DNA of 64,000 nt from an uncultured Lachnospiraceae bacterium (lineage in GTDB: Bacteria; Bacillota; Clostridia; Lachnospirales; Lachnospiraceae). The stretch lies in contig CAMEIX010000017.1 of assembly GCA_945919075.1 (NCBI GenBank), forward strand, positions 1 to 64,000, written 5' to 3'. Under the pieces are notes generated by a model. The model was not told the DNA's origin, ran no database searches, and worked only from the letters and a program-made list of their open reading frames with translations. Positions 3,220 to 50,518 of the stretch are shown here, piece by piece (positions within the stretch are counted from its first letter, which is position 1; each line of letters opens with the position of its first letter). The translations under genes and the position numbers were made by a program.

Positions 3220-6200
3220 ATGCGTAAAAATTCGTTATTCGGAAGATTTTTAGCGGTAGCGATGGCTACACTTATGATAGTAACCGCTTTACCACAGCCG
3301 CTTTATGTTCATGCAGCAGGCGATATCACCTCGGAGGATGTTTTCGATGATGACCCTGAGCGCTTTAGGGCAGAACAACAGGCAAAATACGACCCTTCGA
3401 CATTGATTCCTTTTTCTGATGTAAATGTAGAAGATATGTCCCTTATGTATGTGGATACCGAAAAGTACCTTCATGGAAAATATGCCACAAATTATGATAT
3501 TACAAGAGGAATTGATGTATCCAAACATCAGGGGACGATTGACTGGAATAAGGTAAAGAATGACGGCGTGGAATTTGCTCTGATCAGAGTAGCATTCAGA
3601 GGTTATGGCGCTGCAGGTAATATGGCGAAGGATGCAAAATATATTGAGAATATTACGGGGGCAAAAAATGCAGGCATTCCTATAGGGGTATACATATTCT
3701 CACAGGCAACAACTGTAAAAGAAGCGGAGGAGGAAGCAGAACTTGCGCTTTCTTGTATCAAAGGCTATTCCATTGATCTTCCTGTCGTAATGGATTATGA
3801 ATATGTTAGTTTAAGTACAGGTCTTGGAGGCCGTCTTTATGATGCACAATTAACCAGGGAAGAGGCAACCGCTATCTGTAATGCATTCTGTAAAAAGGTG
3901 ACAGACGCAGGGTATGAAGCCATGGTATATGCCAATCGGGATATGTTAAATAATCATCTTTATGCAGATCAGATTAGTAATCAGTACAAGATCTGGATAG
4001 CCAGATGGAATACACAGACCGGTTATCAGGGAGATTATAGTTACTGGCAGTTTACGGACAAGGGGTCCGTGAATGGTATTAGCGGAGCCGTTGATCTTGA
4101 TTTTAGATATGAACTCATTCAAGATGAACCGGATACGGACCGGGATGTATCAGAGGTAAAAGCCTATGCCTATGATGCAGATTCCCAGACAGAAATTGCT
4201 GTTTCACAGGAAATGTCCAACCCTGTTAATCCGGGTACTACCATTCGTTTAACATCCGATACACAGAATACAGCAATCTTTTATACAATAGGCACCACCA
4301 ATGCGGAACCCCCCGTGCCAACCAGGGAAAATGGAATCCGATACACGGAACCTATTGAAATCACTTCAGACACAGTTGTGAAAGCAATTGCAATGAAGTC
4401 ATTATATAGGGATAGTAAGGTGGCAACATTTTCCTTCTCTGTAAAGGATACCTCTTTGAATCAGGGTGACGTTTTAGATTCTGATCTTCCGGAGGGTGAA
4501 AGTAAAGAAGAACAGATATCCAAGATTGGAAAATACTTCTGGACATCAACGATTGAAGAACAGACCTATACAGGAAAGCAAATCAAGCCGGAATTCCGTG
4601 TCTATTATGGAAAGAAACTTTTAAAAGAGAAGACGGATTATACGGTTTCCTACAAGAACAATACTAATGTAGGAACGGCTACGGTGGTAATAAGCGGCAA
4701 GGGAAACTATACAGGAAGCTATCAGACTACATTTCAAATTTCTACAAGAGATATTTCCGATGCGGTTTCAGCAATTGCCCCTATATCGGTTCCCTTTACA
4801 GGTAAAAAACAGGCGCCAGCTATCAACTTGACAATAGACGGAAGAAAGCTTGTAGTGAATCGGGATTTTTACTTATCCATTGTAAGAAAATCAGATTCAG
4901 AAAGGGAACCGGATGAACCGGTAAAGGAGTGTAAGGACCCGGGTACCTACATATTTACTGTCTCCGCAAAAGAGAATAGTAATTATCATGGAAGTGGGAA
5001 GGTAGAATTTACAATCCGTGCAGAGGCCACCTCCTTAAGCACCGCTAAAATCAAGGTTGCAAATCAAAATTATGCAGACTGGTTTAGCGTTGGAAGTAGT
5101 ATAGATGATGACAGTGATGACTGCCTGGTTGACCCCACGGATTCTTCCAGAGTTTTTGCGCTTACAGGACCGGAAGGTGGTATCAGACCATCCATAATGG
5201 TGGTAGATAAAAATGGCAATGAGATACCAAAAGAAGAGTATGATATAAGTTTTGGCAACAATACAGGCGCAGGAACAGCTACTGTTACAATTACAGCAAA
5301 GAGTTCCAGCACTTTATATGTGGGAAAGAAGACCCAGAATTATCAGATAGCAGGGTATGCAATATCTAAGGCAGGTGTATTTTATACAAATCCTGCAAGT
5401 GGACTAACTACGGACATTACCAAGGGACTAGTACTTACTTATGATGGTAAGCCCAAGGAACCACTTGGAAGCGGTTCTTTGGAAGGAGATGATGTTCCGG
5501 ATAGTATTTCTGTTATCTATAATGTAAATGCCGGTAAGGAGCCAATCATCTTAAAAAAAGGAAGAGATTTTACAGTATCTTATGTAGGTAACATCAAAGC
5601 CGGTAATGCGACTGTAATATTGTCCGGTAAGGGGAGATTTACAGGAACACTAAAGAAGACATTTAAAATCAAGGAATTCGTAGCATCTGAGGATGACAGC
5701 TTGGATAATCACATTTTGATTTTAATGCAGAATCCTGACAAAGAAGAAATTTTAGCAGATTCTCTTGATGGTGAAAACAGACCGGTTTCCGAATATTATT
5801 ATATCAAGGGTGGAGTAACACCCAAGGTAAAGGTTTTCTACGAACCGGACGGTATCGTGACCTTAAATAGTACAACACCGTCCCAGAGTGCAGTGGAACT
5901 GGTGGAAGGCGAAGATTTTCTGGTAAAGCATACCAACAATAAAGCTGCAAACAGTTTTGATGCAAAAAATAAAAGCGGAGTCAGTATTGCACCTACCATC
6001 ACCATTACCGGAAAAAAGAGCTTCAAAGGGAATGTAAGTATTACCTATAGCATACTGAAAGCGGACCTTGGAAAGATGTCTATTACAGTAGCGGATAAGA
6101 ATTGCACCGGACGGGTTGGCGATTTTGCAGTTGCTCCTGTCATGACAGACAGTGCATCAGCAAACAAAGCAAAACTGGTCAAAGGTGTGGACTATGAAAG

Positions 6201-7051: not shown

Positions 7052-7627
7052 ATGGAAACAAGAAAAGAACAAAAGGAACGGAGAAGACAGGAGATTGTAA
7101 ATGCAGCGTTGGAGTTGTTTGTGAGTAAAGGATATGCGGCTACCAAGGTAACAGACATTGCAAAACGGGCGAATATGAGTACGGGACTCATGTTTCACTA
7201 TTTTGAATCCAAAGAGGCTTTATATGAAGAATTAATCGAAATGGGCTTAGAAGGAACCAGATATCCGGGAGCACAGCAGTGTGAGCATGCTATAGATTTT
7301 TTTGTGACATTTACAGAAGAGTTATTCACTTATATGGAGCAACAACCTATTATGGCAAAGATGTTTGTGCTGATGGCGGAGGCACAGCGGAGTGAAGCTA
7401 CACCGGAGCATATCCGGGAAATAGCAATGAAAGTTAATACGATAGAACAGTTTGTACCAATCATCGAATGGGGACAGAAAGAAGGAACAATCAGGGAAGG
7501 AGAGCCCCTGGTGATTTCCAATGCATTCTGGTGCAGCATTCAGGGCATTGCGGAGAGGTATGCTACCAATCAGCAAATTGCATTACCGGACCCGCAGTGG
7601 ATTGTGGATATTGTTAGAAAGAGATAA
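7052..7627 (+). CDS. TetR/AcrR family transcriptional regulator
   Basis: 191 residues. The ATG at 7052 is chosen because GAGGT lies 7 nt upstream and the protein then begins METRKEQKERRRQEIV, the usual TetR N-terminus; the longer frame from 6968 would run through the operator. The helix-turn-helix spans about residues 16-60 (IVNAALELFVSKGYAATKV...MSTGLMFHYFESKEALYEEL). The C-terminal ligand-binding half is intact in length (about 60-191). It is followed after 12 nt by a CrtI-like oxidoreductase gene and probably controls that gene and itself through the tandem palindrome at 6978-7006. Ligand unknown. Confidence 0.9.
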   Translation: METRKEQKERRRQEIVNAALELFVSKGYAATKVTDIAKRANMSTGLMFHYFESKEALYEELIEMGLEGTRYPGAQQCEHAIDFFVTFTEELFTYMEQQPIMAKMFVLMAEAQRSEATPEHIREIAMKVNTIEQFVPIIEWGQKEGTIREGEPLVISNAFWCSIQGIAERYATNQQIALPDPQWIVDIVRKR

Positions 7628-15341: not shown

Positions 15342-17303
15342 ATGGATTACAAATCATTAGCACAAGCCATTATTGAGAATATCGGTGGCAAATCCAATGT
15401 AAAATCGGTTGTACACTGTGCAACCAGACTTCGTTTTACTTTGCTGGATGCAGCAAAAGCAAACACGGAGAAAATCAGTAAATTAAAAGGTGTTTTGAAA
15501 GTAGTGAATGCGGGGGGACAGTACCAGATTGTAATCGGTCCCGATGTGCCCCAGGTGTATCAGGAAGTCATTGCAATGGGCGGCTTTGAAGCCCATGCAG
15601 GTGTAGAAGATCCGGATGCAGAGAAAGAGGATAAAAGATCTCCGCTCAGTAAGTTGTTGGAAAGCATTGCAAGTATTTTCCAGCCGGTTATCCCGGCCAT
15701 TACCGGTGCCGGTCTGTTAAAGGCAATTCTTGCACTTTGTACTACCTTCCACTGGATGGATAATGCTTCCCAGACCTACGCCATCTTAAATGCAATGGCA
15801 GACGCAGCGTTCTATTTCCTGCCGATTCTTCTGGCACAGTCCTGTGCGAAGAAATTTAAATGTAACCAGGGAACCGCAATGGCACTGGCCGGACTATTAC
15901 TCTATCCCAGTTTTATCAGTCTGCTTAAGGAAAGCGAACAGGTTCTGATGTTTGGTTTCCTCCCGATTACAAAGGCAACCTACACCTCTTCCGTTATCCC
16001 GATTATCTTAGGTGTATGGTTCATGTCCTATGTGGAAAAGGCAGTGCAGAAATTCTGTCCGAAAGCAGTGAAGTTTTTCTTTGTACCGTTCTTAAGTTTG
16101 TTTGTGGGTGGTATTGTTACCATTTCCGCGCTGGGACCTATCGGTGCATGGGCATCGGATCTGATTCAGGCATTCTTCTCCTGGCTGAAGGATTTTGCTC
16201 CCTGGCTGGTACCTACCGTGGTTGGTATTTTCTCACCGCTCCTTGTTATGACAGGTACTCATTATGGTCTGATTCCGATCGGAACCAACAATCTGGGTAC
16301 TGTGGGACATGATGCAGTGGTTGGCCCCGGTATGTTGGTTTCCAATACGGCACAGGGTGCTGCAGGTCTTGCAGTAGCAGTTAGAAGTAAGAATCCTGAT
16401 ACCAAGCAGCTTGCATCTTCCGCAGGTCTTACCGGTGTACTTGGTATTACCGAACCTGTTTTATATGGTATTAACTTACGCTTTATGTTCCCGCTTTATG
16501 CAGCGATGATCGGTGGCGGTGTGGGAGGTCTCTTCCTTGGCCTTACCGGTGTAGAACGTTTTGGCGCAGGCTCCCCCGGATTACTGGTATTACCGGTTTA
16601 CCTTCCTAACGAGGCTGCACAGGCACTTGGATTTACCATGAATAACTTTATCTTTGCCATTCTCGGTGTAGCAATTGCCATGCTGGTTTCCTTCATTTCC
16701 TGCTTCATCATGTTTGGAATCTGGGCAAAGAAAGGCAAACTGGATCCTTCCGAAACAGGGAATAAAAAAGAAATGGAAGCAACAGAAGTAGTAGAGGTAA
16801 AAGAAGTAGAAAAAGAAGCCACGAATGTAACCGATGAAGCACATCCTACAAGCGGCAGTCTCTATGCACCATTAGAAGGCGAAGCAGTGGAACTTGCAAA
16901 GGTAGAAGACGAAGTATTTTCTTCCGGCGCAATGGGTGAGGGAATTGCAATTGTACCTGCAAGCGGTAAAGTATATGCACCCTGTGACGGTATTATTTCC
17001 TCCTTCTTTCCTACAGGACATGCATTAGGAATTGTGGCAGATAATGGTGCGGAAATTCTGATTCATGTGGGGATGGATACCGTGGAATTGGAGGGAGAAG
17101 GCTTCACCCCCAAAGCAGGCGAAGGAGACCGTGTGAAGAAGGGACAGCTTCTTTTGGAATTTGATATGGACCTTATTAAATCCCGTGGTTATAAAGTGGT
17201 AACACCGATTGTTGTAACAAATGCAGATGAATTCAAGAGTATTTTGGCAACTAATTATGGACAAGTCACTACCGAAAGTGAGATTATGAAAATAGAAGCA
17301 TAA
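15342..17303 (+). CDS. bglP: PTS beta-glucoside transporter subunit EIIBCA
   Basis: 653 residues with all three domains fused in the order B-C-A. EIIB (about 1-80) has the phospho-cysteine C26 in VVHCATRLRF. EIIC (about 105-475) has roughly ten membrane segments and the family's GTHYGLIPIG and GITEPVLYG motifs. A charged linker (about 475-510, rich in E/V/K) leads to EIIA (about 510-653), whose active histidine is H575 in ILIHVGMDTVEL. It imports and phosphorylates beta-glucosides at the membrane. Neighbours supply the hydrolase upstream and HPr and EI downstream, so the whole phosphorelay from PEP is encoded here. EIIB and HPr would also phosphorylate the PRDs of the upstream antiterminator. 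Confidence 0.95.
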   Translation: MDYKSLAQAIIENIGGKSNVKSVVHCATRLRFTLLDAAKANTEKISKLKGVLKVVNAGGQYQIVIGPDVPQVYQEVIAMGGFEAHAGVEDPDAEKEDKRSPLSKLLESIASIFQPVIPAITGAGLLKAILALCTTFHWMDNASQTYAILNAMADAAFYFLPILLAQSCAKKFKCNQGTAMALAGLLLYPSFISLLKESEQVLMFGFLPITKATYTSSVIPIILGVWFMSYVEKAVQKFCPKAVKFFFVPFLSLFVGGIVTISALGPIGAWASDLIQAFFSWLKDFAPWLVPTVVGIFSPLLVMTGTHYGLIPIGTNNLGTVGHDAVVGPGMLVSNTAQGAAGLAVAVRSKNPDTKQLASSAGLTGVLGITEPVLYGINLRFMFPLYAAMIGGGVGGLFLGLTGVERFGAGSPGLLVLPVYLPNEAAQALGFTMNNFIFAILGVAIAMLVSFISCFIMFGIWAKKGKLDPSETGNKKEMEATEVVEVKEVEKEATNVTDEAHPTSGSLYAPLEGEAVELAKVEDEVFSSGAMGEGIAIVPASGKVYAPCDGIISSFFPTGHALGIVADNGAEILIHVGMDTVELEGEGFTPKAGEGDRVKKGQLLLEFDMDLIKSRGYKVVTPIVVTNADEFKSILATNYGQVTTESEIMKIEA

Positions 17304-38862: not shown

Positions 38863-39188
38863 TATGCCCACCGAAAGGTTAAGCCCATACGGACAGGCGG
38901 GGCAGCTGCCGCGAGTGGCGACAGGCCACATTATTGATTGAGTTAAAAGCTCAAATTTTATAAGTCGATTACTTTATAATCAAAGTAGGGTACACGTCAC
39001 TTGTGAAACGGTCAATAAGAGTAGCCACAGTTATATTTGCTGTTAAGAACTCGAAGAATAGTTTTGGATGGTTTCCATCGCAATATAGGTGCAGAATGCG
39101 CAGCCACAGAAGCGTGAGGGGCATTATGCGGTAGGGCGAAGGAAATGAAAACGAGGCTAGGGACAGGTGATTTCACCTGTCCTTTTTT
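38863..39188 (+). ncRNA. Candidate stand-alone structured RNA, class not identified
   Basis: About 325 nt with no ORF, GC-richer than its surroundings, with a promoter-like sequence before it and a strong terminator at its end. Visible structure: perfect palindrome GGCAGCTGCC (38901-38910), hairpin GTGGC/GCCAC (38915-38929), hairpin GATGG/CCATC (39067-39079), and purine-rich unpaired blocks such as GAAGGAAATGAAAACGAGG typical of RNA tertiary contacts. It does not look like 6S, tmRNA, RNase P, SRP RNA or a riboswitch I can recognise: the downstream decarboxylase gene starts beyond the terminator. Size and autonomy recall clostridial classes such as raiA, but I cannot confirm that. Confidence 0.5.
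39161..39188 (+). terminator. Terminator at the end of the structured RNA
   Basis: GGACAGGTGA (39161-39170) and TCACCTGTCC (39173-39182) form a perfect 10-bp stem with a very short loop, followed by six Ts. It precedes the polyamine operon by 65 nt. Confidence 0.92.
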
Positions 39189-39253: not shown

Positions 39254-40702
39254 ATGAATCTGGAGGCACAAAAGCATGCTCCGGTTTACGAAGCATTGGA
39301 AAGATTGAGAAAACAGAGAATTGTACCTTTCGATGTACCGGGACACAAACGTGGTCGTGGGAACCCGGAATTAAAGGAGCTGCTCGGAGAAAAATGTGTA
39401 AGCCTTGATGTAAATTCCATGAAGCCTTTGGATAATTTATGTCATCCCATGTCGGTAATCAAGGAGGCAGAGGAACTGGCGGCAGAGGCATTTGGTGCAG
39501 ACCATGCATTTTTCATGGTAGGAGGCACCACCTCTTCAGTACAGAGCATGGTACTTACCGCATGCCGTGCCGGTGATAAAATTATCCTTCCGAGAAACGT
39601 GCACAAAAGTGTTATCAATGCATTGGTTTTGTGTGGTGCGATACCCGTATACGTGAACCCCGAAGTGGACGAGAAACTGGGGATTTCCTTGGGGATGGAA
39701 TTGCCGGAATTAGAAAAAGCAATCCATGAAAATCCGGATGCGGTTTGTGTATTTGTGAACAACCCGACTTACTACGGGATTTGTTCAGACTTAAAAGGCA
39801 TCGTAAAACTGGCGCATGAACATAAGATGTTAGTGCTTGTGGATGAAGCCCATGGAACCCATCTGTACTTTGGGGAGGGACTTCCGGTTTCCGCGATGGC
39901 AGCCGGTGCGGATATGGCTTCCGTATCCATGCACAAGTCAGGAGGTTCCCTGACGCAAAGCTCCCTGCTCTTAGTGAATAAGACTGTAAACTGGGAGTAT
40001 GTGAGCCAGATTATCAACCTGACTCAGACAACTTCCGCATCCTACCTGTTATTATCGAGTCTGGATATTTCCAGAAGAAATCTGGCACTCCGCGGTGCCG
40101 AGGCATTTGCAAAAGTAAAGGAAATGGCAGAGTATGCCAGGGAAGAAATCAACGCCATTGGCGGATATTATGCATATGGTGCCGAAATCGTAAATGGAAA
40201 AAGCATTTACGATTTTGATGTTACCAAACTTTCGGTATACACCAGAGGCATTGGGCTTGCGGGCATAGAGGTGTATGACCTGCTTCGTGATGAATATGAT
40301 ATTCAGATTGAATTTGGTGATATAGCCAATGTACTTGCCTATATTTCCATTGGCGACCGTATTCAGGATATCGAACGGCTGGTAGGTGCACTGGCGGATA
40401 TCAAGCGTCTTTATTCCAAGGATCCGGCCAGTCTGATGGCAAGTGAATATATTGCACCGAAGGTTTTGGTATCCCCGCAGAAAGCCTTCTATGCGGAGAA
40501 AAAGGCGCTGCCTATCCGGGAGACTGGGGGCAGAATCTGCAGTGAGTTTGTCATGTGCTATCCTCCCGGAATTCCCATCTTGGCACCGGGGGAACTCATT
40601 ACCGATGAAATTATCAGCTATATTCTTTATGCAAAAGAGAAAGGGTGTTCCATGCAGGGCACCCAGGACCCGTATATGGAATATCTGAACGTACTTGCGT
40701 AG
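39254..40702 (+). CDS. speA: Orn/Lys/Arg decarboxylase family, likely arginine decarboxylase
   Basis: 482 residues, the short aspartate-aminotransferase-fold form found in Firmicutes. Starts YEALERLRKQRIVPFDVPGH, has the PLP-stacking and cofactor loop GGTTSSVQS, LVDEAHGTHL (PLP-binding D and A-H motif) and the Schiff-base lysine K228 in SMHKSGGSLTQ. The C-terminal domain ends with MCYPPGIPILAPGE. The family decarboxylates arginine, lysine or ornithine; arginine is preferred here because agmatine deiminase and N-carbamoylputrescine amidase are in the same operon. Product agmatine would then enter the downstream steps. First gene of a six-gene operon with spacings of 12, -1, 46, 64 and -4 nt. 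Confidence 0.92.
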   Translation: MNLEAQKHAPVYEALERLRKQRIVPFDVPGHKRGRGNPELKELLGEKCVSLDVNSMKPLDNLCHPMSVIKEAEELAAEAFGADHAFFMVGGTTSSVQSMVLTACRAGDKIILPRNVHKSVINALVLCGAIPVYVNPEVDEKLGISLGMELPELEKAIHENPDAVCVFVNNPTYYGICSDLKGIVKLAHEHKMLVLVDEAHGTHLYFGEGLPVSAMAAGADMASVSMHKSGGSLTQSSLLLVNKTVNWEYVSQIINLTQTTSASYLLLSSLDISRRNLALRGAEAFAKVKEMAEYAREEINAIGGYYAYGAEIVNGKSIYDFDVTKLSVYTRGIGLAGIEVYDLLRDEYDIQIEFGDIANVLAYISIGDRIQDIERLVGALADIKRLYSKDPASLMASEYIAPKVLVSPQKAFYAEKKALPIRETGGRICSEFVMCYPPGIPILAPGELITDEIISYILYAKEKGCSMQGTQDPYMEYLNVLA

Positions 40703-46148: not shown

Positions 46149-46490
46149 TTATTTGTGTTTTTTCCGTTTGGATAATTTAACTTTATTAAACAGAGCAATT
46201 TTGTCAGGATTGCCATCCACGTGAAAAACTCCTGAGGAAATGGCAGTCTTATAATCCAAACTACCATCCAGAACGGACAGAATGGCCGAGGTGTCTGCGG
46301 TAACAAGGGCATCCCGGTCATGATAATCATAAGGTTCTACACAAACCTGGCGGTTGGCAATTTCAATATAAAATGCCCCGGCTGCTTCTCCGGTTACGTT
46401 CACCTGAACCGCAACATGTTCATATACTTCTCTTGCGTCTGCATATTCATAGACGTCACGTACCTTGAGTACCAATTCTTCGTATGTCAT
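46149..46490 (-). CDS. SCP2 sterol-binding-domain-like protein
   Basis: 113 residues on the minus strand with AGGAGGGGTG before the ATG. Single SCP2-like domain: an N-terminal amphipathic segment, VTGEAAGAFYIEIANRQVCVEPY strands, then DALVTADTSAILSVLDGSLDYKTAISSGVFHVDGNPDKI, the usual 'T.D...l..ll.G.ld...a...G.i.v.Gd......l' pattern, and a basic tail. Bacterial members bind hydrophobic ligands in a pocket but have no set role. Monocistronic and divergent from the riboswitch-controlled ABC genes. Confidence 0.8.
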   Translation of the reverse strand: MTYEELVLKVRDVYEYADAREVYEHVAVQVNVTGEAAGAFYIEIANRQVCVEPYDYHDRDALVTADTSAILSVLDGSLDYKTAISSGVFHVDGNPDKIALFNKVKLSKRKKHK

Positions 46491-46675: not shown

Positions 46676-46711
46676 ACAGATTGACATATAGAAAACTATC
46701 TGTTAATCTGT
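46676..46711 (+). promoter_or_regulatory. Promoter within an 11-bp dyad, ahead of the riboswitch
   Basis: TTGACA (46681-46686) and TAATCT (46704-46709) at 17 nt spacing. ACAGATTGACA (46676-46686) and TGTTAATCTGT (46701-46711) are inverted repeats with one mismatch that cover both promoter boxes, an arrangement expected of a repressor site. Confidence 0.5.
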
Positions 46712-46719
46712 CAATAATC

Positions 46720-46816
46720 CTTAGGGGAGTAATCGGCACGAAAGTGTGGTAGGTCAACATCCTGGTGACTGCAATGCAGTGTAAATCCTGGCTTACCTTA
46801 ATTGATGAGACTTAAG
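46720..46816 (+). ncRNA. yybP-ykoY (Mn2+-sensing) riboswitch aptamer
   Basis: Begins with P1 CTTAGG (46720-46725) pairing with CTTAAG (46811-46816), contains the conserved GGGGAGTA (46724-46731) of loop L1 and GAGAC (46807-46811) of L3, with the GTCAACATCCTGGTGAC and CTGCAATGCAG hairpins between. This order of invariant elements is the yybP-ykoY pattern; the class responds to Mn2+ and usually raises expression when manganese is high. Assignment is by eye. Confidence 0.75.
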
Positions 46817-46823
46817 TATGGCT

Positions 46824-46885
46824 TATGCTGTACTGGTCCCTAAACATTGTTTATCCGGCGGGTACAGCATACTGTACCCGCTTTC
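46824..46885 (+). terminator. Riboswitch expression platform: antiterminator and terminator
   Basis: Terminator: GCGGGTACAG (46858-46867) and CTGTACCCGC (46872-46881), then TTTCT. Upstream, TATGCTGTAC (46824-46833) is perfectly complementary to GTACAGCATA (46862-46871), so it can open the terminator stem. Alternative pairing next to the aptamer is the signature of a transcriptional switch. Confidence 0.8.
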
Positions 46886-46949
46886 TGTTGTGTATGTATT
46901 ACAAAACGAGAATACGGAGTGCGAACAAAAAAACTTAAGGAGGAAAAGT

Positions 46950-47648
46950 ATGAAACTGAAGATTAACAATGTGCACAAATTTTATGGAGAAGGAGAGAGC
47001 CGCGTAGAGGTTTTACGGGGAATTGACTGTGAGATTAAAGACGGGGAAATCTGTGTTCTTTTAGGACCGTCCGGCTCCGGAAAATCCACTCTGTTAAACA
47101 TCATCGGGGGCATTGAGACTGCGGATGAGGGATGCATTGACATCGGGGATGACTGCACCGATGATATGAATGAAAAGCAGCTTACTCTTTACAGAAGAAA
47201 CCATTTAGGATTTGTCTTCCAGTTCTATAATCTGATTCCCAATTTAACGGTAAAAGAAAACATAGAGGTGTGTGCATACCTTTCGGATAAGCCCCTCGAA
47301 ATCAACGATCTTTTAAAGACGCTGGGGCTTTATGAACACAGGGATAAACTTCCTTCCCAATTATCCGGCGGACAGCAGCAGAGATGTGCTATCGGTCGTG
47401 CACTGGTTAAGAATCCCTCCCTGCTTTTATGTGATGAACCCACCGGTGCGTTGGATTATTCCACATCAAAGGAAATTTTGAAACTGATTGAGGATATTAA
47501 CGCGAAATATCATAATACCATTTTAATCGTGACTCATAACGATGCGATTAAATCCATGGCAAACAGGGTGCTTCGCATGCGGGACGGTAAAATTGTAAAA
47601 AATTATGAAAACGAGACACCCATCCATGCTGCAGATTTAGAGTGGTAG
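46950..47648 (+). CDS. ABC transporter ATP-binding protein (MacB/LolD type)
   Basis: 232 residues from the ATG at 46950 (AAGGAGG upstream). The longer frame beginning at 46818 is excluded because it would translate the riboswitch terminator. Walker A GPSGSGKST (near residue 39), Q-loop FVFQFYNLIPNLT, signature LSGGQQQR near 145, Walker B LLLCDEPTGALD near 165 and switch histidine in IVTHND. Members of this subfamily pair with FtsX-like permeases, as here, and drive extrusion from the membrane or mechanotransmission and not bulk import. Expression should respond to the Mn2+-type riboswitch immediately upstream. Confidence 0.93.
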   Translation: MKLKINNVHKFYGEGESRVEVLRGIDCEIKDGEICVLLGPSGSGKSTLLNIIGGIETADEGCIDIGDDCTDDMNEKQLTLYRRNHLGFVFQFYNLIPNLTVKENIEVCAYLSDKPLEINDLLKTLGLYEHRDKLPSQLSGGQQQRCAIGRALVKNPSLLLCDEPTGALDYSTSKEILKLIEDINAKYHNTILIVTHNDAIKSMANRVLRMRDGKIVKNYENETPIHAADLEW

Positions 47649-47662
47649 GAAGAGGTGATATC

Positions 47663-49915
47663 ATGAAAAATCCATTAAACAGAAGAGTGTTTCGCGAAAT
47701 AAAGGAAAATGCAGGAAAGTATCTTGGAATTTTTGTCATTCTGGCATGTATTATTTTTGTAGGCTCTGCATTCATGGTTACCTTAAGCAGTGCGGATATT
47801 ACCCTGAAAAATCAGGAAAATACGCGCATGACGGAAGATGGTAATTTCGAACTTTTACAGGAAATGCCGGAGGATGCGAAAAAGTTTTTTGAGGAAAACC
47901 AAATTCTCTTGGAAGAAAATTTTTATGTTACCGAGAATGAGTTTTTAGAAAAAGCGAAGGTTCTTGTTTACAACGAAAGAGAGACACTGAATCTCTATGA
48001 TATTTTTGAAGGCGAAGCACCAAAGAACGAATCAGAAATTATTCTGGACCGGCTGTTCGCCGACAACCATGATATAAAAGTGGGGGATAGCATTACCCTG
48101 TGCGGTAACAGGTTTCAGGTAAGCGGTCTGGCAGCTTTTGCAGATTATACATCCCTGTTTAAGTCCAATCAGGACCTGGTCATGGATGTACAGGGCTTTG
48201 GAGTAGCCATGGTAAGCAGGGAAGGCTTTGAGAGGTTTGATAAAAGTCAGATTACACATCATTACAGTTACCGCTTCGAAGACCGGGACCTGAGCGATAA
48301 GGAAAAAAAGGAACTGGCAGAGGATATGCAGGTGAGTCTGGTGATGAACGGGTGCCTTTTACAGAACTTTCTTAGTGCGGACCACAACCAGTGTATCAGT
48401 TTTCTGAAAAATGATATGGGTAAGGATGGTCCCATGATGGAAGTATTTCTCTACATACTGCTTGTCATCATTGCCTTTGTGTTTGCCGTGCTGACCGGAA
48501 ATACGATTGAAAAAGAGGCTACGGTAATCGGTACATTAAGAGCTCTTGGATACACACGCGCGGAAATGATCTGGCATTATTTGCGGCCTACTTTACTGGT
48601 AACGGTTGTGGCAGCGATTGTGGGAAATATCCTGGGCTATACCGTCATGCTTGAGCCCTTTCTTTCCATGTACTATTCTTCCTATTGTCTGCCGCCCATT
48701 GCCATACAGTTTTCCATGCGGGCTTTTGCAATCACAACGATTGCGCCTGTTGTGATTATGGTGATAATCAATGTGGTTCTCTTGTATAACAAGCTGGTTT
48801 TAAGTCCCCTTAAGTTTTTGCGTAAGGATTTAAAGAAGGGAAAACAGAAAAAGGTGGTAAAACTTCCCGACTTATCTTTTATGAGCCGTTTTCGCATTCG
48901 GGTGATTCTGCAAAATAAGATCTGCTATCTGATTTTATTTGTCGGTATTTATCTGTCCGGTCTGCTTTTAATGTTTGGTGTGGGACTGGGCCCCTTACTG
49001 GACCATTATGTGGAGAATATTGACCAAACTTTGCCGTATGAATATCAATATATCTTAAAAGCACCGGTGGAGGCAGGGGGTGGCGAAAAGGTTAAGATGT
49101 ACTCCATGAGTACCTACAGCAAACAGTATGATAAGGATATCGAAATCACTCTGATGGGAGTGGAGAAAAACAGCAGCTTCTTTGACTATGTGCCCTCGGC
49201 AAAAGAGGAGGAAGCAGTCATTACAGAGCCCATGGCAAAGAAACTGAAACTGAAGGCGGGCGATGAAATTACCCTGAAAGACAGTTATTTTGACAAGGAA
49301 TATACTTTTAAGATTACGGCAGTCTGTGATTACGACAGTACGCTTGGCATCTTTATGGAGAGAGAAGTTTTAAATAAACTGTTAGGCGCCGATGCAGAAG
49401 ATTTCAACTGTCTGGTCTCCAATGAAAAGCTGACGATCGACGAGGCATATCTTGCGAAGTATCTTACAAGAAGCGACATAATCGGGGCAACCGGGCAATT
49501 GATGGATATGTTTGATACGGTTCTTAAAGTGTTCAGCATTTCCTCCGTGGTGATATACATGATTCTGATGTATATTTTAACCAAGACCGTAATTGAGAAG
49601 AATGCGCTTTACATTTCCTTTATGAAGGTCTTTGGTTATAACAGCAAGGAAGCAGGAAGTCTTTACCTTCATGCCACCGGCATAACCGTTATTCTTTCCG
49701 TGCTGGTATGTCTGCCCTTGCAGCATCTTGGGTTTGGAGCCCTGATGGACTCCATCACCGGTATGATCGAAGGATATGTTCCGTTCTATCTGCCGGCATG
49801 GGTCTATGTCTTTATTGCGGTAGTCGGCATTGGGGCATACTTCGTGATTAATTCTTTTCATGTACGGAAGGTACAAAAGATTCCTATGAGTGATGCCCTG
49901 AAAAACAGGGAATAA
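47663..49915 (+). CDS. FtsX-like ABC permease
   Basis: 750 residues from the ATG at 47663 (AGAGGTGAT upstream). First membrane segment at about 18-40 (YLGIFVILACIIFVGSAFMV), then a large extracytoplasmic domain (about 45-270), three segments between about 275 and 395 forming the first FtsX core, a segment near 425 (KICYLILFVGIYLSGLLLMFG), a second extracytoplasmic domain (about 450-620) and three last segments (about 630-740). Eight segments with two external domains match the long two-core permeases paired with one ATPase. The preceding ATPase gene ends 14 nt away. Substrate unknown; the upstream riboswitch class is usually attached to manganese export or homeostasis genes. Confidence 0.9.
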   Translation: MKNPLNRRVFREIKENAGKYLGIFVILACIIFVGSAFMVTLSSADITLKNQENTRMTEDGNFELLQEMPEDAKKFFEENQILLEENFYVTENEFLEKAKVLVYNERETLNLYDIFEGEAPKNESEIILDRLFADNHDIKVGDSITLCGNRFQVSGLAAFADYTSLFKSNQDLVMDVQGFGVAMVSREGFERFDKSQITHHYSYRFEDRDLSDKEKKELAEDMQVSLVMNGCLLQNFLSADHNQCISFLKNDMGKDGPMMEVFLYILLVIIAFVFAVLTGNTIEKEATVIGTLRALGYTRAEMIWHYLRPTLLVTVVAAIVGNILGYTVMLEPFLSMYYSSYCLPPIAIQFSMRAFAITTIAPVVIMVIINVVLLYNKLVLSPLKFLRKDLKKGKQKKVVKLPDLSFMSRFRIRVILQNKICYLILFVGIYLSGLLLMFGVGLGPLLDHYVENIDQTLPYEYQYILKAPVEAGGGEKVKMYSMSTYSKQYDKDIEITLMGVEKNSSFFDYVPSAKEEEAVITEPMAKKLKLKAGDEITLKDSYFDKEYTFKITAVCDYDSTLGIFMEREVLNKLLGADAEDFNCLVSNEKLTIDEAYLAKYLTRSDIIGATGQLMDMFDTVLKVFSISSVVIYMILMYILTKTVIEKNALYISFMKVFGYNSKEAGSLYLHATGITVILSVLVCLPLQHLGFGALMDSITGMIEGYVPFYLPAWVYVFIAVVGIGAYFVINSFHVRKVQKIPMSDALKNRE

Positions 49916-50059: not shown

Positions 50060-50518
50060 ATGTGTAATAAGGACACTATAAAAAGAATAATGAATAAGAA
50101 AATACCGGGAAAATTTTGGGTTTTTCTTCTGATTTTTGTGGTATGTGGTGTGCTTGGTTATCATTTGATTAATGAGTATGTTATATATAAAAATCCCAAG
50201 ATGTATCTGCATACTAGCACTCGTAAAAATGGTGATGATATAGTACAAAATTTTTGGTTAACGACACAATGTTCCCGATTTGGAATGCCAAAAGAGTACC
50301 ATGACAGAGAAAAAGAATGGTATGATAAAGTAGTTACCTATCAGACTTTACTTGAAACTGATTATGTATATCCAAAACAAGTTTATGTATCGCATGAAAT
50401 AAGAGATGGAAAAACATATTTAACTTATGATGGTACTGTAACTACAAAAGAGGGACAGGCGGCAGAAATACATAAGGTCATAGAATTGTCTTTTGAAGTA
50501 TCTACATTTTCCAATTAA
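50060..50518 (+). CDS. Small membrane-anchored protein of unknown function
   Basis: 152 residues. A basic start is followed by one membrane helix (about 18-40, FWVFLLIFVVCGVLGYHLI) and an extracytoplasmic domain of about 110 residues (WLTTQCSRFGMPKEYHDREKEWY...YVYPKQVYVSHEIRDGKTYLTYDGTVTT). An alternative start at 50090 (MNKKIPGKFW) would shorten the cytoplasmic part. Markedly AT-rich compared with neighbours, hinting at a different origin. Not recognised. It lies 145 nt after the FtsX permease and ends at a strong terminator shared with the convergent DHHW gene. Confidence 0.7.
   Translation: MCNKDTIKRIMNKKIPGKFWVFLLIFVVCGVLGYHLINEYVIYKNPKMYLHTSTRKNGDDIVQNFWLTTQCSRFGMPKEYHDREKEWYDKVVTYQTLLETDYVYPKQVYVSHEIRDGKTYLTYDGTVTTKEGQAAEIHKVIELSFEVSTFSN

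Follow-up and report, generated by a model that had tools for sequence, protein, structure and literature searches.

Here, we have analyzed a stretch of 64,000 nucleotides (nt) from an uncultured Lachnospiraceae bacterium (GenBank assembly GCA_945919075.1, contig CAMEIX010000017.1; hereafter the window), whose genome is a 3.0 Mb draft in 55 contigs, and have focused on a structured RNA leader that is followed by an intrinsic terminator, an ATP-binding cassette (ABC) ATPase gene and an FtsX-type permease gene (coordinates in Table 1). Our results suggest, with a probability that we put at roughly 70%, that an intact Mn2+-sensing aptamer of the yybP-ykoY class, coupled to a four-segment attenuator, turns on a predicted type VII ABC operon when Mn2+ is high. 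A broader proposition, for which we consider the chances about even, is that Clostridia have linked an envelope machine to their manganese regulon: mntP-type riboswitches would stand on type VII ABC/FtsX operons from three or more permease clades, with a four-segment attenuator in which one metal aptamer would gate two terminators in a row by way of an RNA arm common to both.

On the basis of sequence and comparison, membership of the leader in the yybP-ykoY (Mn2+ riboswitch) class could be confirmed. The curated Rfam model of this class, RF00080, gave no match in the whole window at its gathering score. Within 371 bases surrounding the leader, nothing was matched even at E ≤ 10, and its curated cut-off of 45 bits was not reached; all 19 leaders that we later used for a model of our own also lie below that cut-off. 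Both results count against the assignment. On the source genome, RF00080 had a single match (E 6.6), which lay elsewhere than the window leader, and the mntP leader of the same genome scored 19.9 bits. Only 2 of 14 control genomes gave a match at the cut-off; among 117 genomes of the order, the model matched 16 at E ≤ 0.01 and none at the cut-off. Under the same model (Rfam 15), E. coli mntP scored 41.6 bits and E. coli alx gave no match at E ≤ 1. RF00080 lacks power for this clade, and its cut-off is a threshold of the database and not a property of the riboswitch class. The sequence-only reading, which had proposed a Mn2+-type riboswitch here, had named the lack of a significant Rfam score as grounds for abandoning the proposal; taken literally the search speaks against it, but the model is too weak here.

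As RF00080 was too insensitive, we built a new covariance model, R1, from 19 leaders, namely that of E. coli mntP (L037) and 18 of the 19 RF00080 matches from genomes of the order. None of them was picked from an ABC locus, and the leaders of E. coli alx (L038) and L042 (identical to that of L041) were omitted. R1 matched the window leader with 50.7 bits (E 7.4e-9) and all six homologous leaders with 44.6–55.2 bits, and no further match up to E 10 was found in 105,717 bases. The proposed Mn2+-type identity was therefore recovered by a model made only from the leaders of other genes. R1 is firmly anchored by the established Mn2+ riboswitch of E. coli mntP (so named in PMC11647493). Against shuffled sequences, the whole leader had a folding z of -2.6, and the folding energy of the aptamer alone was not exceptional (z +0.37). 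Judged from its sequence, the aptamer appears to be a Mn2+ riboswitch of the ordinary kind, overlooked by Rfam, and what is new would be its target and its expression platform.

The hallmarks of the class, that is, L1, the two P1 strands and GAGAC (46807-46811), lie where the sequence-only reading had placed them; only the label of the last needed correction, as GAGAC, the 3' strand opposite L1, is not L3, which instead reads TCAACATCCT. L1 GGGAGUA and GAGAC are present in all 20 ABC-linked leaders (the window included) and in all 91 mntP leaders. The same 20 have the L3 adenosine, as do all mntP leaders caught by our L3 pattern (87 of 91); among those missed, the three printed read TCGACAT. 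Mutation of the matching A48 in the X. oryzae riboswitch is reported to abolish the stably docked state (PMC6754395). In an alignment of seven sequences, P3 showed compensatory changes at four of nine predicted pairs, and P4 in the relatives of the window was longer than usual, with a GUAAAU bulge conserved in five of the seven. The three-way junction form can be placed within the class because a yybP-ykoY riboswitch with a three-way junction has been described from Streptococcus (PMC9495176).

These features bear on an unlikely alternative, namely a yybP-ykoY variant that responds to a different divalent ion or condition, with the ABC operon lying outside the Mn2+ response. Diverse genes follow yybP RNAs, and variants of altered specificity have been suspected, which would explain genes that fit Mn2+ poorly (PMC7266159). 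In the window, the sensing adenosine and its U are followed by CCU, as opposed to mostly ACU in mntP leaders, and P4 is enlarged. On the other hand, L1, the sensing adenosine and GAGAC are unaltered in all 20 ABC-linked leaders, and the L3 10-mer of the window is also present on two mntP leaders. In addition, six ABC leaders of another type (L085, L145, L152, L153, L155 and L156) have aptamers that are 95–98% identical to mntP aptamers of relatives; for example, the mntP aptamer of the source genome equals that of L085 at 85 of 88 positions. The best non-ABC match of the window aptamer reached only 80%, and L140, which belongs to the permease clade of L145, only 78%. For the six loci, copying of an mntP leader to an ABC operon, or the reverse, is the simplest reading, and it would argue for the same ligand. 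The new type of Mn2+ response that the sequence-only reading had offered would be possible only on the output side, because the sensing core equals that of the mntP leaders.

Downstream of the aptamer, four segments can form three mutually exclusive pairings that are conserved across leaders: hairpin 1 (segments 1:2), the antiterminator (2:3) and terminator 2 (3:4). The terminator and the perfect 10-bp antiterminator predicted earlier were both present; the idea of a switch held, but a plain terminator/antiterminator pair has to be replaced by a four-segment relay that is common to many mntP leaders. In the window, the 2:3 duplex amounted to -19.5 kcal/mol, as low as in none of 200 shuffles, and the terminator-like site was the only one in 501 bases (shuffled mean 0.1). 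We then examined distinct leader sequences with a second hairpin starting 34–104 nt after GAGAC (18 ABC, 29 mntP, 3 P-type ATPase and 1 other); ABC leaders absent from this test were L114, which has no second terminator, and L237, whose second terminator was unresolved by the detector. A 2:3 duplex of -8 kcal/mol or lower was found in 18 of 18 ABC and 28 of 29 mntP leaders, and the duplex beat dinucleotide shuffles (at most 10 of 200 as low) in 17 of 18 ABC, 21 of 29 mntP, 2 of 3 P-type ATPase and 1 of 1 other leaders. The pairing between the hairpins, which joins the 3' arm of hairpin 1 to the complementary 5' arm of the second hairpin, also occurs in the mntP leader of the source genome.

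Hairpin 1 keeps a U-run and is terminator-like in 8 of the 20 ABC leaders (L035, L059, L114, L120, L140, L145, L218 and L237). A further terminator-like hairpin, defined as any such hairpin within 230 nt after GAGAC and hence possibly extending into the gene, was found in 18 of the 20 ABC leaders and also in 43 of the 91 mntP leaders. Ordinary members have a terminator that overlaps with P1.1 at its 3' strand (for example, GAGACTT...AAGTCTC-T in L046 and L049), and in L. lactis the Mn2+-stabilized P1.1 blocks such an overlapping terminator, giving an ON switch (PMC11087558). Conservation of the pairings was measured on 12 of the 20 ABC leaders, the alignable ones of the GTAC type. Standard pairs made up 97.6% in hairpin 1, 90.0% in the antiterminator and 92.2% in terminator 2, compared with at most 57.4% in any slid register, and none of 500 shuffles of the partners reached the level of hairpin 1 or terminator 2. 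Pairs changed on both sides numbered six in terminator 2, three in the antiterminator and one in hairpin 1; as many were reached by 2 of 500 shuffles for terminator 2 and by 34 of 500 for the antiterminator. Support is good for terminator 2 and moderate for the antiterminator, and that for hairpin 1 comes from pairing only.

Attenuators of the trp type follow the same scheme, as pairings 1:2 and 3:4 together terminate and 2:3 antiterminates, with the difference that segment 1 of the window leader would be held by a metal aptamer and not by a ribosome. Without Mn2+, segment 1 (GAGAC and the 3' strand of P1.1) would quit the aptamer and pair with segment 2; with segment 2 occupied, segment 3 would be free, terminator 2 would form and transcription would stop. 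With Mn2+, P1.1 would be locked and segment 2 freed to pair with segment 3, and RNA polymerase would read through. One aptamer may in this way control two terminators in series, as P1.1 would exclude hairpin 1 and the released arm would disarm terminator 2.

The folding energetics are supportive, not clean. Without constraint, the best fold of the window leader was hairpin 1 with terminator 2 (-57.8 kcal/mol). When segment 1 was held in truncated transcripts of the 18 ABC leaders, antiterminator pairs rose from 5.8 to 12.0 on average, and 14 of the 18 gained at least three pairs. An OFF switch, in which the ligand-locked P1.1 would stack on the stub of hairpin 1, segment 2 would stay sequestered and terminator 2 would form, has a low probability in our view. 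One review classes these riboswitches in this way (PMC11477304), and P1.1 with the stub and the terminator folded 0.9 kcal/mol better than P1.1 with the antiterminator; however, the antiterminator lost one pair or more in none of the 18 leaders with segment 1 held, the terminator-like hairpin 1 of the eight ABC leaders is one that P1.1 would exclude, and the L. lactis example described above is an ON switch.

Several observations weigh against an ON switch that governs this operon. The U-tract of terminator 2 is imperfect in the window. The pairing level of the antiterminator was reached by 27 of 500 shuffles and its covariation is moderate, and for hairpin 1 the number of double changes does not exceed that of shuffled partners (reached by 159 of 500). 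With P1.1 forced in the window, the antiterminated and terminated folds tied (-48.7 versus -49.6 kcal/mol), because P1.1 leaves room for a 6-bp stub of hairpin 1, and the truncated transcript of the window itself gained little when segment 1 was held (only 12.2 to 12.7 antiterminator pairs). In full transcripts, only 7 of the 18 ABC leaders, the window included, tipped mainly to the antiterminator, and the switch would therefore have to be kinetic in the rest. At the level of loci, only 2 of the 24 permease loci L094–L117 (35–39% identity) carry the leader, and L118, a close relative, has a short intergenic region and an operon without leader.

To what extent leaders of this type occur elsewhere was investigated with R1, which matched 197 of 348 family genomes at E ≤ 0.01 and, at E ≤ 0.001, 77 of 121 genus genomes and 85 of 148 class genomes. 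These counts are lower bounds, as only 11 to 32 candidates were scored per genome and the family scan missed the window itself, and for the former reason the lack of a hit in such a scan is weak evidence. We further surveyed 120 leaders: the 30 best loci of the family scan, 30 from the top of the genus scan, 59 of the next 61 family-scan loci (G000:C29, already in as L165, and G252 were skipped) and L237 (G279), which was taken out of order as a permease was known beside it. It should be noted that this sample is non-random and that the window's own subfamily (R1 44–59 bits) is under-represented in it. Except for L199, which left no room for a gene, all could be classified by downstream gene: 91 MntP, 11 P-type ATPase, 9 ABC ATPase and 8 others (two OAD_beta, two TetR, flotillin, Na:Ala symporter, Na/Ca exchanger and MgtE). 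ABC ATPase was thus the third commonest target among the classified leaders (8 of 118 without the hand-picked L237), and an FtsX gene was found beside it in seven of the nine loci by tblastn, with L155 and L156 coming from the permease-protein search. The source genome itself contains a second yybP leader directly 5' of an intact mntP (Pfam Mntp).

Searches from the permease side gave a similar picture. The leader stood ahead of the same operon in all five relatives retrieved by the permease protein and in L003, retrieved by leader DNA; those in named records are Lachnospiraceae metagenome-assembled genomes from horse, goat and roe deer guts. The other matches of the leader DNA search were 15–32 bases long and chance-like, and besides the window only L003 was a real relative. 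Among the best permease loci, the leader was present at 12 of 59 in the family and genus and at 4 of 29 in the class, where the match of L247 is cut by the locus end. L238 and L239 are leader-bearing loci in another family with a permease identity of 52–53%, and L292 has the leader ahead of ABC and FtsX genes on the same genome and contig as L251. The riboswitch in front of an ABC ATPase and an FtsX permease, as first read from the window, recurs in the leader survey and in the permease searches alike, and this target is not a peculiarity of the source genome.

A permease tree was made from 52 of 62 permeases (length 600–860 amino acids), with the leader scored as an R1 match in the locus and contig-cut loci such as L093 scored as lacking. 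The distribution of the leader needed six changes, all six forced by starred branches, compared with a shuffled mean of 13.2, and none of 500 shuffles was as low. In the window's permease clade, 9 of 11 rows carry the leader; the other two are L093, which starts at a contig end, and L118. In G199, the genome of L093, a second, overlapping permease fragment has the leader (L231). Two further leader-bearing clades comprise L103/L120 and L140/L145/L146, and L114 counts as doubtful, as its leader and gene are separated by a second promoter-like site (by eye). As the tree tool warned of long branches meeting in the 24–27% group, we claim separate clades and no number of gains. The ABC pairing thus occurs in at least three permease clades and also outside the family.

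That the leader is a leftover or hitch-hiker of a lost mntP, with the ABC operon not regulated by it, seems highly improbable. The second promoter-like site of L114 would fit such a history, as would L191, an apparent remnant in which a leader precedes a (by eye) partly deleted mntP and a TetR gene. However, a leader retained in 9 of 11 rows, with L093 starting at a contig end, and a source genome that keeps an intact mntP with its own leader both speak against this reading.

The eight-segment FtsX permease anticipated from the sequence was seen as eight helices in the AlphaFold model (predicted local distance difference test, 80.9). The protein matched PF02687 (FtsX) with 55.4 bits (cut-off 25.5) and PF12704 (MacB-type periplasmic core) with 29.2 bits (cut-off 27). 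A sequence search of the permease against solved structures gave nothing useful, and a fold search was made for that reason. Matches were YbbP, BceB, HrtB, LolC/E and MacB, of which YbbP and BceB were the best: BceB had a VIA-align Z of 20.0, tied with YbbP chains (21.6 and 19.6), and the best Foldseek match was YbbP. Based on this model, the operon is predicted to encode a type VII (YbbAP-like) ABC system. Like E. coli YbbAP-TesA, a type VII ABC system (PMC12646458), it has a separate ATPase and a permease of two FtsX modules. Unlike that system, identity is 13–14%, the YbbAP equivalog NCBIfam NF041854 stayed below its cut-off (18.9 versus 999 bits), and no TesA-like gene was found among the neighbors in Pfam and NCBIfam scans. 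The MacB macrolide exporter model NF007826 was not reached either (ATPase 194.6 versus 966 bits), and ATPase and permease, joined in one chain in MacB, are separate genes here.

The ABC/FtsX pair might perform mechanical envelope work, extracting or presenting a membrane-borne substrate rather than pumping ions, and this work could be part of the MntP response to excess Mn2+; we hold both suggestions less firmly than the switch itself. Quite improbable, on the other hand, is that the pair directly exports Mn2+ or a Mn2+ complex and constitutes a new manganese efflux system. The leader type is common to mntP and P-type ATPase genes, and the fold lists contain the heme exporter HrtB, solved with Mn-protoporphyrin, although a common fold shows no substrate; the YbbP, BceB, LolC/E and MacB systems, by contrast, act on membrane or envelope substrates (for YbbAP, PMC12646458).

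Table 1. Features of the leader and operon on the forward strand of the window
Feature	Position	Strand	Evidence or remark
yybP-ykoY (Mn2+ riboswitch) aptamer, three-way junction form	46717..46818	+	R1 50.7 bits, E 7.4e-9
P1.1 switch helix, 5' strand	46720..46725	+	pairs with 46811-46816
L1, GGGGAGTA	46724..46731	+	GGGAGTA in 20/20 ABC-linked leaders
P2 hairpin	46736..46747	+	A-U to G-C change preserved in one of 7
P3 arm (46748-46755 with 46790-46797), contains L3 and P4	46748..46797	+	compensatory changes
L3, TCAACATCCT; A46759 equivalent to the Mn2+-reading A48 of X. oryzae	46754..46763	+	A in 20/20 ABC-linked leaders
Enlarged P4 with GTAAAT bulge	46764..46789	+	GUAAAU in 5/7 aligned leaders
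Segment 1: GAGAC and P1.1 3' strand, contested by aptamer and hairpin 1	46807..46816	+	GAGAC in 20/20
Hairpin 1 core GTATGGC/GCTGTAC	46816..46833	+	no U-tract in window
Segment 2: antiterminator arm	46824..46833	+	10 perfect pairs with 46862-46871
Intrinsic terminator 2 (segments 3 and 4), with imperfect tail TTTCTGTT	46858..46881	+	-17.8 kcal/mol
Likely sigma-A promoter TTGACA (46681-46686), 17 nt, TAATCT (46704-46709)	46681..46709	+	upstream TTGAC conservation
Ribosome binding site AAGGAGG	46937..46943	+	sequence
ABC ATPase, 232 amino acids	46950..47648	+	PF00005 2.2e-33; by sequence, best solved relative BceA
FtsX-type permease, 750 amino acids, two FtsX modules	47663..49915	+	PF02687, PF12704

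Upstream of the aptamer, TTGAC was found 34–56 nt 5' of it in 20 of 21 leaders (the 20 ABC-linked leaders and the mntP leader of the source genome, the sole exception being L120), compared with 6.4% of random 60-mers. A stricter promoter scan did not list TTGACA-17-TAATCT, whose second hexamer has three of six matches. Transcription in the window likely starts just 5' of P1. Divergent from the leader lies an SCP2 sterol-transfer-family gene (46149-46490, minus strand). Downstream of the permease, a 152-amino-acid open reading frame (50060-50518), with one membrane helix by eye, was matched by nothing in Pfam or NCBIfam at E ≤ 0.001, and in the relative L036 a T-box leader (RF00230, 100.7 bits; 7293-7540) was found downstream of the ABC operon.

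Some additional observations concern other riboswitch-like leaders. Unusual yybP targets include MgtE, a Na/Ca exchanger, a Na:alanine symporter, oxaloacetate decarboxylase beta and a flotillin-like gene (L225, L206, L183, L157, L184 and L082; the target of L184 was assigned by similarity to L157). The apparent remnant L191 (101-560) perhaps represents a stage of target replacement. Two tandem pairs of R1 matches resemble double Mn2+ aptamers: G584:C60:4832-4927 with 4976-5067 (48 bases apart) and G683:C199:16059-16170 with 16469-16580 (298 bases apart). Elsewhere in the window, an SpF59/ldcC RNA (RF02440, 53.1 bits, above cut-off; 38865-38912) lies a short way before a gene at 39254 that by eye encodes a decarboxylase of basic amino acids and belongs to a polyamine-type cluster that ends with N-carbamoylputrescine amidase (TIGR03381 above cut-off). 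This RNA is a possible second riboswitch-like leader in the window.

Compared with the known RF00080 examples, E. coli mntP and L. lactis yoaB, the window leader has the same L1/L3/GAGAC core, P1–P4 layout and P1.1 switch helix, and differs in its three-way junction, its enlarged P4 and its ABC/FtsX target; its P1.1 feeds a four-segment relay instead of one overlapping terminator. A Mn2+ riboswitch tied to envelope or secretion physiology in addition to efflux has a parallel in B. subtilis ykoY/meeY (TerC), although TerC, unlike the ABC system of the window, is a membrane metal transporter (PMC10550928). The Mn2+ riboswitch targets named in the literature cited here are ion pumps and TerC-like proteins. 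In our literature searches, we found no publication linking yybP-ykoY to FtsX or to a four-segment layout; the target lists of the two founding papers and of the Streptococcus mgtA paper might include an ABC transporter.

As RF00080 is silent at the window leader and below threshold in the 117 genomes of the order, a Mn2+ regulon is easily missed by routine annotation, and the Mn2+ riboswitches of the order may go unannotated under this model. If the proposed reading is true, the four-segment platform would let a single aptamer control two terminators, growth with Mn2+ would offer a first physiological handle on such unassigned FtsX operons, and, given the recurring association with type VII ABC systems, excess manganese would serve as a signal for work at the envelope.

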